Positions 3,969 through 34,681 of a stretch of 34,681 nucleotides of DNA are shown here, piece by piece. The notes beneath the pieces are model-generated. The model was not told the origin of the DNA, made no database searches, and saw only the letters and a program-made list of their open reading frames with translations. Position 1 is the first letter of the stretch, and each line of letters starts with the position of its first letter. Both the position numbers and the translations under genes were made by a program. This stretch comes from a virus, in IMG/VR virus record IMGVR_UViG_3300034061_000520, positions 1 through 34,681 of that record, one strand, 5' to 3'.

Positions 3969-4053
3969 ATATCAGTAGTAAAATCCTTATATGTAGAATA
4001 TTATACAACTAGATTTATTGTATTATATTCAATATCTTAAAGCAAAGGTATAT
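3969..4053. promoter_or_regulatory. Divergent promoter region with a 16-bp near-palindrome
   Basis: An 85-bp, very AT-rich gap lies between the minus-strand late regulator and the plus-strand phosphoesterase gene. Bases 3992-4007 (TGTAGAATATTATACA) are palindromic except for one pair and contain a TGTAGA hexamer like those at the early promoters. A minus-strand TATAAT lies at 4005-4000 within it, so a bound protein would cover a -10 box. I see no convincing -35 for either direction. AAAGG at about 4044-4048 is the ribosome site of the rightward gene. Confidence 0.45.
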
Positions 4054-8288: not shown

Positions 8289-8500
8289 TGACTCCCATAG
8301 TTTGTGTAAACAGTAAGGCTATCTATCCGCATTTGCATCTCACGAATCTTTAGTTCTTGCGCTCTAAGCATCTCGGCGGCTTCTACTAATGCGTAGATGG
8401 CGTTGCTAAACTGCAATGCACTTTCCAGCTCGTCTGCTAGTTCCATAGCTGTTTTGCCGATCTCTACTTCTCCGGCAAACGGAATAAACTCTGTTGGCAT
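8285..8500 (-). CDS. Small helical protein, unknown function
   Basis: A 71-residue protein with an acidic helical core (MELADELESALQFSNAIYAL, then AEMLRAQELKIREMQMRIDS) that reads as a coiled coil. It may pair with the 75-residue helical protein encoded next to it. The start shares one base with the upstream stop (TAATG). No family recognised. Confidence 0.65.
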   Translation of the reverse strand: MPTEFIPFAGEVEIGKTAMELADELESALQFSNAIYALVEAAEMLRAQELKIREMQMRIDSLTVYTNYGSH

Positions 8501-8838
8501 TACGCACCCCCTATTGCTTTAGTGTTTTTAGTTGCCAAAATTACTTCCTCCAGCCCATCTTCGGGCCTAATTTCTAAAAGTTTAAGATGGTCAGAAGTTA
8601 GGCAAGTACCGTTCTCTCGATACAGAGTGCCTGTAATTCCATCCATCATGTATTTTTTCTTAAAATGGTCTGTAGCGATCCAAACTGGAGTAACGACAAT
8701 CTCGCCCTCGTTGGTAACGCCACGCAATAGGATTCGATCAATTAGCCATTCTTTTTTTAGACGCTTGATCTGCCAGGTTGGAAAACACGCAGTAGCATCA
8801 GCGCACATACCAGTAATAGATTTTCTTATAGCTTTCAT
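8500..8838 (-). CDS. First gene of the leftward early unit, unknown function
   Basis: A 112-residue protein of mixed alpha/beta character, with a basic start (MKAIRKSITG), a strand-rich middle (EIVVTPVWIATDHFKKKYMM) and an acidic end. No motif that I can name. The ATG stands only 7 bases after a likely -10 box (TAGTAT, 8851-8846) with no ribosome site between, so the mRNA may be leaderless or transcription may start elsewhere. Confidence 0.65.
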   Translation of the reverse strand: MKAIRKSITGMCADATACFPTWQIKRLKKEWLIDRILLRGVTNEGEIVVTPVWIATDHFKKKYMMDGITGTLYRENGTCLTSDHLKLLEIRPEDGLEEVILATKNTKAIGGA

Positions 8839-8845
8839 AAACTAC

Positions 8846-8875
8846 ATACTAATCTACAAATCTACATTGGCGCAA
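8846..8875 (-). promoter_or_regulatory. Leftward early promoter with two TGTAGA hexamers in the spacer
   Basis: Read on the minus strand: TTGCGC (8875-8870), an 18-bp spacer, then TAGTAT (8851-8846). The spacer holds TGTAGA TT TGTAGA, that is AATCTACA twice in tandem on the plus strand (8851-8866). A 17-bp stretch (ATTTGTAGATTAGTATG) recurs exactly at the rightward promoter (10863-10879). Spacing and boxes fit a sigma-70 promoter. The hexamers look like operator half-sites. Confidence 0.6.
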
Positions 8876-8921
8876 GTGTTTTTTGATGTGTACAAAAAGT
8901 CGGGTTTTCTATACATATCCC

Positions 8922-8947
8922 GACAATGTGTATAGACAATGTATATA
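8922..8947. repeat. Tandem 13-bp repeat
   Basis: GACAATGTGTATA followed directly by GACAATGTATATA, one mismatch between copies. It lies upstream of the leftward early promoter inside the repeat-dense gap and may be a binding site or part of an origin. Confidence 0.75.
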
Positions 8948-9146: not shown

Positions 9147-9250
9147 ATAACAAAGTCAATGTTAAATAGATAACAAAGTAAAAAAAAGTTTTCTGATCGG
9201 GTTATTTGTAAAAAAAAGTAGCGTAAATTACACAAAAGTTACTGATCGGG
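9147..9250. repeat. Direct repeats ATAACAAAGT and CTGATCGGG (iteron-like)
   Basis: ATAACAAAGT occurs at 9147-9156 and 9170-9179. CTGATCGGG occurs at 9193-9201 and 9242-9250, each preceded by AAAAGTT and followed by ATTT(T)GTAA and an A-run. Two copies each is few for iterons, but the similar flanks imply duplication of a ~40-bp unit. Confidence 0.6.
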
Positions 9251-9415
9251 ACATTTTGTAAGAAAAAGTAATGCAGTTGCATTGTTGGTCAATAAATCTG
9301 CGTATTCGAGCGTTTTTGACCTGATATTGTCAATAATTCTGTTTAACAGGGAAAATTGTGTCGTTAAACAAGCCTTAACCCATTTGTGTATCTCATTAGA
9401 TACAAAACCGACTGG

Positions 9416-10206: not shown

Positions 10207-10296
10207 TTACTGCTCCTGGGCCGCTACGATGTCGTTAGAGCCGCCAGCACAGGAAACACAACTATACCCTACAACTCCACTTCTTTGCAAGCCCAT
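10207..10296 (-). CDS. Possible 29-residue peptide overlapping the nuclease end
   Basis: A short frame from ATG 10296 with GGAAG directly before it. The peptide ends SCAGGSNDIVAAQEQ and has two Cys three apart (CVSC). It overlaps the nuclease-like gene by 28 bp. The same frame continues past its TAA through two more segments broken by TGA and TAG (to about 10082), so it may instead be the start of a decayed gene. Confidence 0.35.
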   Translation of the reverse strand: MGLQRSGVVGYSCVSCAGGSNDIVAAQEQ

Positions 10297-10583
10297 CTTC
10301 CATTCGGTTGTTTGTACCAGCCCAAAACAAGGATGCGCCACTTGCTGCGTATGAGTTCCGGCAGGTATTCAGACTCGCTAATCTTTTTAACCCTACTGCT
10401 AATGTTGGATTTGCTAGTGATCTGGACACCTACCGTTTCCCCATTGCCTACAGCCAATATATCGAATATATGAAATAGATCCTTTTTGCGCCTGGTGAAA
10501 GCATTGTACGACTCAACTATGTCGCACTTATAGCCCCTAGACTCCAGCAAAGCGACTGTACGGCTGTTTTGGCTATTAGCCAA
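10269..10583 (-). CDS. PD-(D/E)xK-like nuclease family protein
   Basis: A 104-residue protein with a restriction-like core: an early helix (SQNSRTVALLESRGYKCDIV), FDILAV with Asp41 and, 13 residues on, VGVQITSKSN, where Gln54 and Lys58 replace the usual ExK. I recall relatives in other phages with the same QxTS variant. Whether it cuts DNA is unknown. The start is TTG at 10583. The protein has no internal Met, so no ATG alternative exists, and the TTG overlaps the end of the regulator gene by 8 bp. Confidence 0.6.
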   Translation of the reverse strand: MANSQNSRTVALLESRGYKCDIVESYNAFTRRKKDLFHIFDILAVGNGETVGVQITSKSNISSRVKKISESEYLPELIRSKWRILVLGWYKQPNGRWACKEVEL

Positions 10584-10755
10584 GGTCTTGCTCGGTTAGG
10601 CGGCCTTCGGAGGCTTCTACGATCTTCTGATGCCATTTAGCCGGTATGCCGTTACGCATCTTCCAGGCATAGGCCGTTACATACTTAACTTCTATTGCTT
10701 TGCACAAATTCTTGATTGAGCCAAATTCAGCCATAAGTTTTTCAAATGCGGTCAT
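10576..10755 (-). CDS. YdaS/Cro-like DNA-binding regulator
   Basis: A 59-residue protein from ATG 10755, with GGAG at good spacing. It starts FEKLMAEFGSIKNLCKAIEV and carries VTAYAWKMRNGIPAKWHQKI, the compact helix-turn-helix of the Cro/YdaS type (roughly residues 11-45). It faces the rightward operon across a 166-bp gap with hexamer repeats TGTAGA/TCTACA. I infer that it binds them and represses itself and the two early promoters. An upstream TTG frame extension to 10854 is rejected. Confidence 0.75.
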   Translation of the reverse strand: MTAFEKLMAEFGSIKNLCKAIEVKYVTAYAWKMRNGIPAKWHQKIVEASEGRLTEQDLG

Positions 10756-10766
10756 GGTTTCTCCTA

Positions 10767-10785
10767 TGTAGACTTTTATTCTACA
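10767..10785 (-). promoter_or_regulatory. Inverted hexamers over the regulator gene's -10 region
   Basis: TGTAGA (10767-10772) and TCTACA (10780-10785) form an inverted pair 7 bp apart. On the minus strand TAGAAT at 10783-10778 is a plausible -10 box for the YdaS/Cro-like gene, so a bound protein would block it. No clear -35 at 17 bp was found. Confidence 0.45.
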
Positions 10786-10837
10786 CCTTTGCAAAAACGC
10801 AACATAGTGCAAAAAAGCGACATTAGGGTTTGTCCTA

Positions 10838-10853
10838 TGCAAAATAGTTTGCA
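10838..10853. repeat. 16-bp inverted repeat TGCAAA-4-TTTGCA
   Basis: A perfect 6-bp inverted repeat around ATAG. It overlaps the -35 box of the rightward promoter (TTGCAA, 10849-10854). A second element, TTGC-6-GCAA, lies further left near 10789. It may be a second operator or activator site. Confidence 0.55.
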
Positions 10854-10878
10854 AATCTCTACATTTGTAGATTAGTAT
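10849..10878 (+). promoter_or_regulatory. Rightward early promoter with inverted TCTACA/TGTAGA in the spacer
   Basis: TTGCAA (10849-10854), an 18-bp spacer, then TAGTAT (10873-10878). The spacer holds TCTACA TT TGTAGA (10858-10871), a 14-bp operator-like inverted repeat. The 17 bp at 10863-10879 are identical to the leftward promoter's minus strand at 8861-8845. The first gene starts about 44 bases downstream with an AAGGAG ribosome site. Confidence 0.65.
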
Positions 10879-10921
10879 GGATTCATGCAGTACAGATTAA
10901 CCACTCGTGAAGGAGTATGAA

Positions 10922-11011
10922 ATGAAAGAAATTATTTTAGGCGGTATCTTTGGTGCAGTAATCGTGTTCTTTGCTGCAACGGTTTACGGCTTTCGTGTAG
11001 GTGTGCTATGA
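10922..11011 (+). CDS. 29-residue single-pass membrane peptide
   Basis: The first gene of the rightward unit: ATG 10922 after AAGGAG. The peptide is one hydrophobic helix (ILGGIFGAVIVFFAATVYGF) with a charged start (MKE). Its TGA overlaps the next gene's ATG (ATGA). Small leader membrane peptides of this kind are common in phage early operons. The function is unknown. Confidence 0.65.
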   Translation: MKEIILGGIFGAVIVFFAATVYGFRVGVL

Positions 11012-11289
11012 ACTATAACAACAACAACTACTACGAGCCAGAAGATGACACATACTCGCTGGACTTGCAAGAGCGCATCTACGATGCCGTAAAGAACGAT
11101 CCTGAGTACGACCCATCGGATATATTCAAATGGGGCGAGGCTCTACAGCAAAAGTGTAATGATCCCGATTTACAGGCTTTCTTGCGTGATTGCATAGAAA
11201 AGAAAGAGTGGGAGAAGTTAGGTAGAAAGTTATACTACCTGTCGTTTGAGTATCAAGAAGCTGTTGCAGAATATCATTTAACCAAGTGA
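11008..11289 (+). CDS. Acidic early protein, unknown function
   Basis: A 93-residue protein with an Asn/Tyr-rich start (five Asn near residues 2-7), an acidic body (EPEDDTYSLDLQERIYDAVK) and a helical C-terminal half. No family recognised. It is coupled to the upstream peptide by ATGA and sits directly ahead of the recombination gene ERF. Confidence 0.65.
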   Translation: MNYNNNNYYEPEDDTYSLDLQERIYDAVKNDPEYDPSDIFKWGEALQQKCNDPDLQAFLRDCIEKKEWEKLGRKLYYLSFEYQEAVAEYHLTK

Positions 11290-11300
11290 AGGGGAAAACC

Positions 11301-11870
11301 ATGTCAGTATTTACTAAATTAAACCAGGCACGAATCAAGCTACAAAACACCGAGCTTACTAAATCGGGCCATAACAAGTTTGCAGGGTATCGCTACTTTG
11401 AGCTGGGTGATTTCTTGCCTACCGTACAGAACATCTTTGCCGATCTAGGGCTCTGCGGCATTGTGTCTTACGGCACAGAGATAGCCAGCCTTACCATTGT
11501 GGATACGGAAGATAACAGCAATATCGTTATCACTAGCCCAATGGGGTCTGCGGCCTTAAAGGGCTGCCATGAAGTCCAGAATATCGGAGCTGTGGAAACC
11601 TATCAGCGCAGGTATTTATGGGTTACGGCAATGGAGATTGTAGAACACGATGCGCTGGATTCGTCTGAGCCATTAGTTGCAAAGCCTGAGTTTCCAGTAG
11701 ATTACTACATTGGCAATTTGCAGGCAGCAGAAAGCCCTGCCGAACTCCGAACCGCCTACGCTCTATCTTACCCGAAATTTAACAACAATAAGGCAGAACA
11801 GGGAAAATTAGTTGCAGCTTATGAACAGATGAAGGCGATGCTAAATGAAACTAGCACAACAGCAGCCTGA
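11301..11870 (+). CDS. erf: ERF-family single-strand annealing recombinase
   Basis: A 189-residue protein of the Erf annealing family, which pairs complementary single strands in phage recombination and circularisation. The core reads SGHNKFAGYRYFELGDFLPT near residues 22-41 and VETYQRRYLWVTAMEIVEHD before residue 130; the rest is a helical tail. ATG 11301 is chosen over a GTG at 11286 because AAGGGG lies just before it. It pairs with the YqaJ exonuclease (12896) and the SSB-tip protein (13506) as an exonuclease-annealase set. Confidence 0.88.
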   Translation: MSVFTKLNQARIKLQNTELTKSGHNKFAGYRYFELGDFLPTVQNIFADLGLCGIVSYGTEIASLTIVDTEDNSNIVITSPMGSAALKGCHEVQNIGAVETYQRRYLWVTAMEIVEHDALDSSEPLVAKPEFPVDYYIGNLQAAESPAELRTAYALSYPKFNNNKAEQGKLVAAYEQMKAMLNETSTTAA

Positions 11871-12899: not shown

Positions 12900-13516
12900 T
12901 CGAGCAGGGAAGTGCTGAATGGTTGGCAATTAGGCTGGGCAAAGTAACCGCTAGTCGGATTACGGATGTCTTGGCTAAAGGTAAGTCGGGCGAGGCCGCT
13001 ACGAGGGAAGATTACCGCACAGAATTGGTAGTCCAAAGGCTCACAAACGAGCCAGGAGAGTCGTTTACCAATGCGGCAATGGAATGGGGTACACAGACCG
13101 AACCAATGGCTAGAATTGCTTATGAGGCCCATGCTAATGTATTTGTAGAACAGGTTGCTTTTGTAGATCATCCTACGATAGAATGGTTTGGTTGTAGCCC
13201 AGACGGACTGGTTGGCGAAACTGGTTTACTGGAGATCAAATGCCCAGCTAGTAAAACGCATATTAAGTATTTATTGGGAGGCAAACCGCCTGCAAAGTAT
13301 GTGCCGCAGATGCAATGCCAAATGGCAGTAACGGGCCGAGAGTGGTGTGATTTTGTAAGCTACGATCCACGCTTGCCGGAAGATTTGCAGTTGTTTGTAG
13401 TGCGCCTTGAGAGGGATGTAAGTTACATCATGGCAATGGAAGAAGAAGTAGATAAGTTTTTAAAAGAAGTGAGTGGGATGTATTCTAAATTAAAGGAAAT
13501 CAATAATGTCTTATGA
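12896..13516 (+). CDS. YqaJ-type (lambda exonuclease family) recombination exonuclease
   Basis: A 206-residue exonuclease of the YqaJ/lambda-exo group, which resects double-stranded ends to give single strands for the annealing protein. The front is [20 protein letters not shown]. Catalytic residues are Asp103 (GCSPDGLVG) and Glu113-x-Lys115 (LLEIKCP), with a Gln-rich helix (QMQCQMAV) after. Length is normal for the family. With erf it forms a Red-like pair, and the SSB-tip gene overlaps its end by 11 bp. Confidence 0.92.
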
Positions 13517-14130: not shown

Positions 14131-14457
14131 ATGACCACTAAAGAATTTAACCAGGCACTCCATGACCAATACGATCCCCCAGCAAGAGAGGCGGTGACAA
14201 AATGGTTAAAGATGAAGCGTGGACTAGAGTGTAGGGAAAACCCTAATGTGTATGGAGTAGATTTGCTCGTATATAAACTAGGTAAGCTAGTTGGTTATAT
14301 TGAAGTAGAAGTTCGTGGCTGGGCGTACTGCCACTATCCCACCATTCATGTTGCACAGCGTAAAGACAAGCTATTTCAGCAAGATCGGCCTGTGCTATTT
14401 TTTGCACTAACTCAAGACTTAACCCACGCATACTGGGCAAGGGCCGAGAAGGTGTAG
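14131..14457 (+). CDS. Conserved phage protein, possible PD-(D/E)xK fold
   Basis: A 108-residue protein from ATG 14131. A TTG at 14098 would add 11 residues; neither has a clear ribosome site. The core reads VYGVDLLVYKLGKLVGYIEV with EVEVR after it, an Asp and Glu-x-Glu arrangement like restriction-type nucleases. It then continues PTIHVAQRKDKLF and LFFALTQDLTHAYWARA. I recall similar unnamed proteins in phages. The nuclease activity is inferred from pattern. It is near the end of the rightward early unit. Confidence 0.65.
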   Translation: MTTKEFNQALHDQYDPPAREAVTKWLKMKRGLECRENPNVYGVDLLVYKLGKLVGYIEVEVRGWAYCHYPTIHVAQRKDKLFQQDRPVLFFALTQDLTHAYWARAEKV

Positions 14458-34130: not shown

Positions 34131-34681
34131 TTAAACTATCCACTTTGCGTTAATCTTTAATGGCCTGTCCCACATATCGGGCTTCTCATCCAGTCCTACG
34201 GCAACATATCTCCATGCATCTGCTGCGTGGGAATGTTGGTCATGTAAGGGTTTGTCACTAAACATCTTTGTATCTGCGTCTACTGCGTATCTGTAGTGCC
34301 GTAAAGCCTGTAAACCTTCAGCGCATCGGTTGGTATCAAAGTAACACCGATTCATCAACATTCTAGCTGCGTTTATGCCGTCTGAGATAGACAGTTTAGG
34401 GGTAATCCGTACCGGCAGCCCCATGTTTTCAATAATCTCTTTTGTGCTGCGACCAGTCATATTCTTATGTTCTGCGTCATGCGGCAGCCAATGATCCCTA
34501 TATGTATATCCCTTGTTTTGAAGGATATTTACATAATGATCTATGGTTTTTTGGTTGTCTTGATAGAAGTCAATAACTCGTACCTCACCGCCAGGCACAG
34601 TCTGTACGAACCAAATACTTGTATTGTCTGCCCAGCCTAAGTCCCAGAATGTAGATACAGGGATAGACTTATCAACTTGTA
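34131..34681 (-). CDS. terL: Terminase large subunit, C-terminal part (runs off right edge)
   Basis: The rest of the large terminase, entering from the right edge and ending at TAA 34131-34133. It holds the nuclease domain: the frame matches the left part through the 220-bp overlap, then continues MTGRSTKEIIENMGLPVRIT and ends with HSHAADAWRYVAVGL, whose Asp is the usual third metal ligand. Length joined across the circle is 421 residues. The apparent start at 34598 is only a GTG inside the protein. Confidence 0.93.
   Translation of the reverse strand, partial: QVDKSIPVSTFWDLGWADNTSIWFVQTVPGGEVRVIDFYQDNQKTIDHYVNILQNKGYTYRDHWLPHDAEHKNMTGRSTKEIIENMGLPVRITPKLSISDGINAARMLMNRCYFDTNRCAEGLQALRHYRYAVDADTKMFSDKPLHDQHSHAADAWRYVAVGLDEKPDMWDRPLKINAKWIV
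34462..34681. repeat. Terminal direct repeat, right copy
   Basis: A second copy of bases 1-220, equal except T at 34551 and G at 34554. Both copies encode the same terminase residues. It shows that the contig closes into a circle of 34,461 bp. Confidence 0.95.

Follow-up and report, generated by a model that had tools for sequence, protein, structure and literature searches.

In textbook descriptions, a phage operator is a rigid palindrome that takes a symmetric dimer, and phage repressors that sit in the -35/-10 spacer, or cover the -10 and the start, block RNA polymerase. Cro genes normally lie downstream of PR. Among described systems, CP-933P is reported to have both direct and inverted repeats under the YdaS and PaaR2 footprints (PMC8630535), and N15-type operators are 16 bp long with a TA-N10-TA motif (PMC4997575). 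Outside phages, the helix-turn-helix (HTH) repressor ArdK of plasmid R388 binds its promoters at direct repeats but is able to bind an inverted repeat as well; it meets the direct repeats by rotating one HTH, and the spacings vary among its homologues (PMC9723621). ComA of Bacillus subtilis relies on inverted repeats at one set of promoters and on direct ones at another, and its RNA polymerase contacts differ between the two (PMC4797271). We claim no homology to either protein; ArdK belongs to the KorA/ArdK family, has its own dimerisation domain and comes from a plasmid rather than a phage, and ComA is an activator of another HTH family. By analogy, both are precedents for a single regulator working on direct and inverted repeats.

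The window, by which we mean the whole 34,681-nucleotide stretch of viral DNA analysed here, resembles lambda-type immunity regions, including the PaaR2/YdaS region of CP-933P, in having a small HTH gene beside divergent promoters and repeated operator-like words over the rightward early promoter (PR), the regulator promoter and a distant leftward promoter (PL) (Table 1). It differs from those regions in several ways: one HTH gene is seen, encoding 59 amino acids and sitting in the cI slot; its product lacks a separate dimerisation or cleavage domain; and the half-sites are hexamers without fixed spacing. With one HTH gene at the switch and no integrase among the window proteins scanned (a subset of ORFs, against Pfam and PHROGs), a lone Cro-type repressor timing early genes fits as well as a lambda-type lysogeny switch. 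We propose, with a probability of roughly 0.7, that the locus is a minimal early-gene switch, in which the 59-aa protein would read the hexamer TGTAGA/TCTACA at PR, at PL and at its own promoter and repress all three.

Table 1. Features of the early region, with window coordinates
Feature	Position	Strand	Remarks
First gene of PL transcript	8500..8838	-	Directly after PL
PL, leftward early promoter	8846..8875	-	TTGCGC-18 bp-TAGTAT; kept in relatives
PL half-site 2, TGTAGA	8853..8858	-	-10-proximal; turns PL pair direct
PL half-site 1, TGTAGA	8861..8866	-	-35-proximal
104-aa conserved companion, predicted PD-(D/E)XK nuclease-like (Hjc fold)	10269..10583	-	Start overlaps regulator stop
59-aa regulator, predicted all-helical Cro-like	10579..10755	-	Predicted fold, domain searches
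TGTAGA-N7-TCTACA over the regulator's own promoter	10767..10785	-	-10-like TAGAAT overlaps first hexamer
TAGGG-N5-CCTA imperfect palindrome	10823..10837		Between regulator promoter and PR; recurs in relatives
PR, rightward early promoter	10849..10878	+	TTGCAA-18 bp-TAGTAT; kept in relatives
PR half-site 1, TCTACA	10858..10863	+	-35-proximal; constant across relatives
PR half-site 2, TGTAGA	10866..10871	+	-10-proximal; turns PR pair inverted
First gene of PR transcript, short membrane-like peptide	10921..11010	+	
ERF annealing protein	11286-11870	+	Further on in PR transcript

The genome is podovirus-type, and its portal shares 52% identity with that of Methylophilales phage Venkman and is closer to Manatee Spring records. 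The two ends of the record repeat one another over 220 bp (1-220 versus 34462-34681, 218/220 identical), and the record is probably a complete genome, circularly assembled or terminally redundant. After PL and its leftward genes come three more genes read leftward, for a glycosyltransferase-like protein, the Hjc-like nuclease and the regulator in that order; PR and the recombination genes ERF and YqaJ follow. The regulator-nuclease operon is superficially like restriction C-protein operons, and the predicted fold of the companion is like that of the Holliday junction resolvase Hjc. Several other repeats were seen in this genome. A gene-free stretch at about 9195-9275, between PL and the glycosyltransferase-like gene, contains direct repeats (TGATCGGG...TTTGTAA(A/G)AAAAAGTA) and is a possible replication origin; TATACA/TGTATA palindromic segments are repeated upstream of PL, at about 8905-8945, and are kept in many relatives; and a perfect TAGGGAAAACCCTA palindrome lies at 14232-14245 within a PDDEXK-like gene.

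The PR spacer holds the inverted pair TCTACA-TT-TGTAGA (10858-10871, plus strand) and the PL spacer the direct pair TGTAGA-TT-TGTAGA (8853-8866, minus strand), i.e., the same hexamer occurs in both topologies within the promoters of one circuit. The 17-mer ATTTGTAGATTAGTATG is the same at PR and PL and is absent elsewhere in the window, even allowing 3 mismatches. On the minus strand of the regulator promoter, TGTAGA comes first of the two hexamers. The putative operator hexamers lie within the -35/-10 spacer or, at the regulator promoter, over the -10/start region; further hexamers occur upstream of -35 and downstream of -10, and candidate sites overlap both PR and the regulator promoter. All of the promoter and hexamer coordinates given in the initial annotation (PR, PL, 10767-10785 and 3992) were recovered, as were the identity of the 17 bp at the two early promoters and the overlap of a hexamer with the likely -10 of the regulator. 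The TGTAGA at 3992 is present, but it is unpaired and nothing supports an operator role for it.

PL and PR each match the sigma-70 consensus at 8/12 positions only, and a generic promoter scan at 9/12 listed neither; their conservation among relatives supports taking them as promoters. The first ATG follows the PL -10 hexamer after only 7 nt (window 8838-8846), so the PL message is probably leaderless, and this layout recurs in most relatives.

The 17 bp common to PL and PR could reflect chance, or two duplicated promoters that share ancestry without selection. We consider this hardly credible, as it is contradicted by the counts of paired hexamers and by conservation across clades whose regulators are 49% identical. 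The window contains 2 gap-2 hexamer pairs, counting any orientation, whereas among 400 dinucleotide-preserving shuffles, 4 contained a single pair and the other 396 contained no pair. Across 24 whole relative records, most of about 32-40 kb and a few of them fragments, the direct gap-2 pair appeared at most once per record (in 13/24) and the inverted pair likewise (in 8/24), and a reversed-pattern control gave 0 occurrences. Because the shuffle and whole-record counts are low, paired hexamers are not as common in coding DNA, in keeping with the initial annotation, which placed the signal in the paired spacing inside promoters. The same annotation put the chance expectation of a lone TGTAGA at about 17. 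Against 16.5 expected in the window, 51 were observed, so the lone hexamer is itself over-represented. The excess is partly codon context in genes, where we counted 38 hexamers versus 20.8 in synonymous shuffles; density outside genes is three times that within them. One codon phase (xxT GTA GAx) accounts for 25/38 of the TGTAGA in genes, probably a Val-Glu/Asp codon-pair effect. A direct gap-12 pair at 13144/13162 was rejected as coding, inside the YqaJ gene, and a broad scan with TGTAGATTAGTATG returned 118 stretches, mostly from unrelated contigs, and was therefore left out of the evidence.

Viral contigs gave 72 relatives of the regulator, 64-97% identical to it, and further searches found a second clade at about 57-68% identity and a third at about 49%. 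No relative was found among isolated phages, where a distant form gave only chance-level matches, nor in any bacterial genome among 84,980 species genomes searched for prophages. The hexamer layout at both early promoters and the regulator promoter is kept in more than 100 related fragments from freshwater-type phages. Regions upstream of the regulator vary among relatives through insertions, deletions and exchanged modules, and almost every first-clade locus has CTCTACATTT followed by a -10 box near the regulator, the remaining ones having it further upstream. By six-mer enrichment, TCTACA/TGTAGA occurs 277 times in 70 distinct 200-bp regions upstream of the regulator and is present in 70/70. 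This amounts to about 4 hexamers per 200 bp, versus 0.357 per 200 bp elsewhere, an 11-fold enrichment among relatives that are not independent samples. Other strongly enriched words in these regions are mostly single-copy (ribosome-binding region, flanks).

Not all half-sites are equally constant. PR half-site 1 is TCTACA in 35 distinct sequences, a constancy of 100% that is partly by construction, as the search was anchored on half-site 1, and that is likewise visible by eye in an unanchored listing of relatives. PR half-site 2 is exact in 25/35 distinct sequences, with the variants TATGGA, TATCGA, TCTGGA, TGTGGA, TGTGGT and TTCTGT. At PL, counted after spurious automatic matches had been taken out by hand, half-site 1 is TGTAGA in 36/39 distinct sequences and persists when half-site 2 decays; half-site 2 is TGTAGA in 30/39 and TTCTCG-like in one clade, and two loci have the weaker copy at half-site 1. 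A tree of the regulator-nuclease region calls for at least 8 changes of state of half-site 2 at PR and at least 4 at PL, counts that recombination can inflate. This pattern indicates that the invariant unit is the -35-proximal hexamer, with the -10-proximal copy repeatedly lost at both promoters. A pair is not always needed, since the PL of one clade has a single hexamer; in L029, L032 and L061 the single TGTAGA at PL is shifted 2 bp further upstream. The initial annotation's view of paired hexamers in early promoters is borne out in their regulatory look and the flipped half-site, but its emphasis on the pair has to shift to the -35-proximal hexamer.

The unequal decay of the two copies bears on another explanation, in which the shared 17 bp would be a core-promoter element (an extended -10 or a discriminator) for the host polymerase and not an operator. 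The 17 bp adjoin the -10 hexamer at both promoters, and at the regulator promoter a hexamer shares bases with the -10-like TAGAAT. However, the dispensable copy is the -10-proximal one, and hexamers also stand upstream of -35 and downstream of -10, and we regard a core-promoter element as highly improbable.

Context also varies around these sites. PR half-site 2 is lost in 8/24 sequences that have one more hexamer-like site some 20 bp upstream, versus 0/17 sequences that have a TAGGG palindrome there (Fisher p 0.013, uncorrected for relatedness). At the regulator promoter, hexamer spacing ranges over 7-9 bp among relatives, which rules out a rigid palindrome there and, like the single-hexamer PL of one clade, weighs against the proposed switch.

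In the direction of each transcript, the central position holds TCTACA at PR and TGTAGA at PL; the two do not swap, and the word lies on the same absolute genome strand at both. The PL site might instead be an inverted repeat with one weak arm, that is, a degraded palindrome for an ordinary Cro dimer. The half-sites are near-palindromic, as TGTAGA and TCTACA differ at 2/6 positions (T-S-TA-S-A), and PR half-site 2 decays too (e.g., to TATGGA or TCTGGA). We nevertheless consider a degraded palindrome unlikely, given that PL half-site 1 is so often exactly TGTAGA and outlasts half-site 2, and that the second clade has many direct pairs, with centres 8, 10 and 20 bp apart. The missing intermediates also argue against it: because the two words differ at two positions, a flip by point mutation must pass through TGTACA or TCTAGA, and these palindromic one-step forms account for 0/517 sites in regulator regions. 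Across whole loci they make up 494/3288 (15%). Their absence from regulator regions points to one asymmetric hexamer used both ways.

Further evidence for use in both directions comes from the relatives. Second-clade loci typically have four to seven hexamers per 200-bp region, in direct, convergent and divergent arrangements. Preferred centre distances, with the first and second clades pooled, are 8 and 21 bp for convergent pairs, 13-14 and 32-33 bp for divergent pairs, and 8, 10-11 and 20-21 bp for direct pairs. At the homologous site just before TATTAGGG, 46 distinct sequences have TGTAGA and 5 have TCTACA; here the site has flipped in place, perhaps just once. The regulators of L106 and L107 share 49% identity with that of the window; in these two loci PL is AATGTAGAGATGTAGATTATCAT, again a direct gap-2 pair, with GA as the spacer, and PR is CTCTACATTTTAGATTATTGT.

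The predicted structure of the regulator (AlphaFold2, pLDDT 92.8) is a compact all-alpha HTH fold of about 60 residues that superposes on known Cro structures. It matches the all-helical Cro proteins, with TM-scores of about 0.88-0.89 for Xfaso 1 Cro and about 0.78 for N15 Cro and P22 Cro, whereas its score against YdaS, 0.64, is below the Cro matches. With a best E-value of 1.8e-3, this likeness is fold similarity and not proven homology. A PDB sequence search with the regulator gave no meaningful match. Among domain models, Pfam YdaS (PF15943) scored 23.8 bits, below its gathering cut-off of 30, and NCBIfam NF046037 (carph-isopro) narrowly passed at 39.4 against a cut-off of 38; a literature search found no paper on the carph-isopro domain. 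Based on the model, the all-helical Cro proteins are the closest structural matches of the regulator and YdaS is not an especially close one, so the initial label, YdaS/Cro-like, is better supported in its Cro half. The position of the gene differs from that of all-helical Cro genes, as it occupies the cI position, points away from PR and toward PL, and is not the first gene of the PR transcript. Because it is on the minus strand and reads away from PR, we class the protein as Cro-like in fold and not as the Cro of a lambda-type switch.

Does this protein read the hexamers? Its recognition region, K24-P38 (KYVTxYAWxMRNxIP), is almost invariant wherever hexamers are present. L106 and L107, which keep the recognition helix, have 13-14 hexamers in the 2.5 kb upstream of erf, whereas phages whose ERF is 56-74% identical to that of the window, but whose regulator is of another type or in which none of this type is visible, carry 0-3 over at most 2.5 kb upstream of erf, in a comparison of whole regulator families and not of matched helix and base changes. 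Eight ERF phages with another HTH regulator share other words there, e.g., TGTCAA and CTTTAC. The initial annotation had assigned the hexamers to the circuit of the small HTH gene, and their co-occurrence with the regulator across relatives agrees. Because of this co-occurrence, the kept recognition region and the Cro-like model, the 59-aa protein is the leading candidate binder.

A different protein, either a host factor or another phage protein, might bind the hexamers instead, with the 59-aa gene merely linked to them. The candidate role of the 59-aa protein does rest on sequence and a model, and a second conserved palindrome, TAGGG-N5-CCCTA, suggests that another factor may act here. Yet the hexamer clusters go with this regulator, ERF-related phages that have other regulators lack them, and hexamers lie at and around the regulator's own promoter, as autoregulation predicts. 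We therefore judge a different binder to be quite improbable. The TAGGG palindrome itself is possibly the site of a second regulator. In the form TAGGG-N4..6-CCCTA, it is found upstream of PL in L331, L342, L346 and L372 and most second-clade loci have it upstream of PR. In the first clade it alternates with the extra hexamer at that place.

With the 59-aa protein as the binder, we infer that one HTH would contact each asymmetric hexamer, TCTACA or TGTAGA. Protein in the PR and PL spacers and over its own -10/start would block RNA polymerase, and as the regulator accumulates it would switch off its own gene along with the leftward genes and the recombination genes to the right. At PR, the 14-bp inverted pair has the geometry of a small symmetric operator and would probably be bound by a two-fold dimer. 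That dimer cannot hold the direct pair at PL, where binding would have to be head-to-tail, by an asymmetric dimer or by single subunits. The differing pair topology at PR and PL would then set the order or strength of repression. A bolder and doubtful version is that the hexamer is an independent module, read either way at centre distances of 8, 10-11, 13-14 and 20-21 bp by a 59-residue Cro-like protein without a separate dimerisation domain. Which promoter is shut first would then depend on how the central hexamer faces RNA polymerase, and in every clade examined it faces opposite ways at PL and PR.

Tolerance of direct and inverted half-sites has so far been studied in a few plasmid and host regulators. 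Here, more than 100 natural variants keep the half-site word while changing its copy number, spacing and orientation, and one site is found both ways. Evolution has supplied, in this set, a ready series with which to test how a very small repressor copes with half-sites in direct as well as inverted order.
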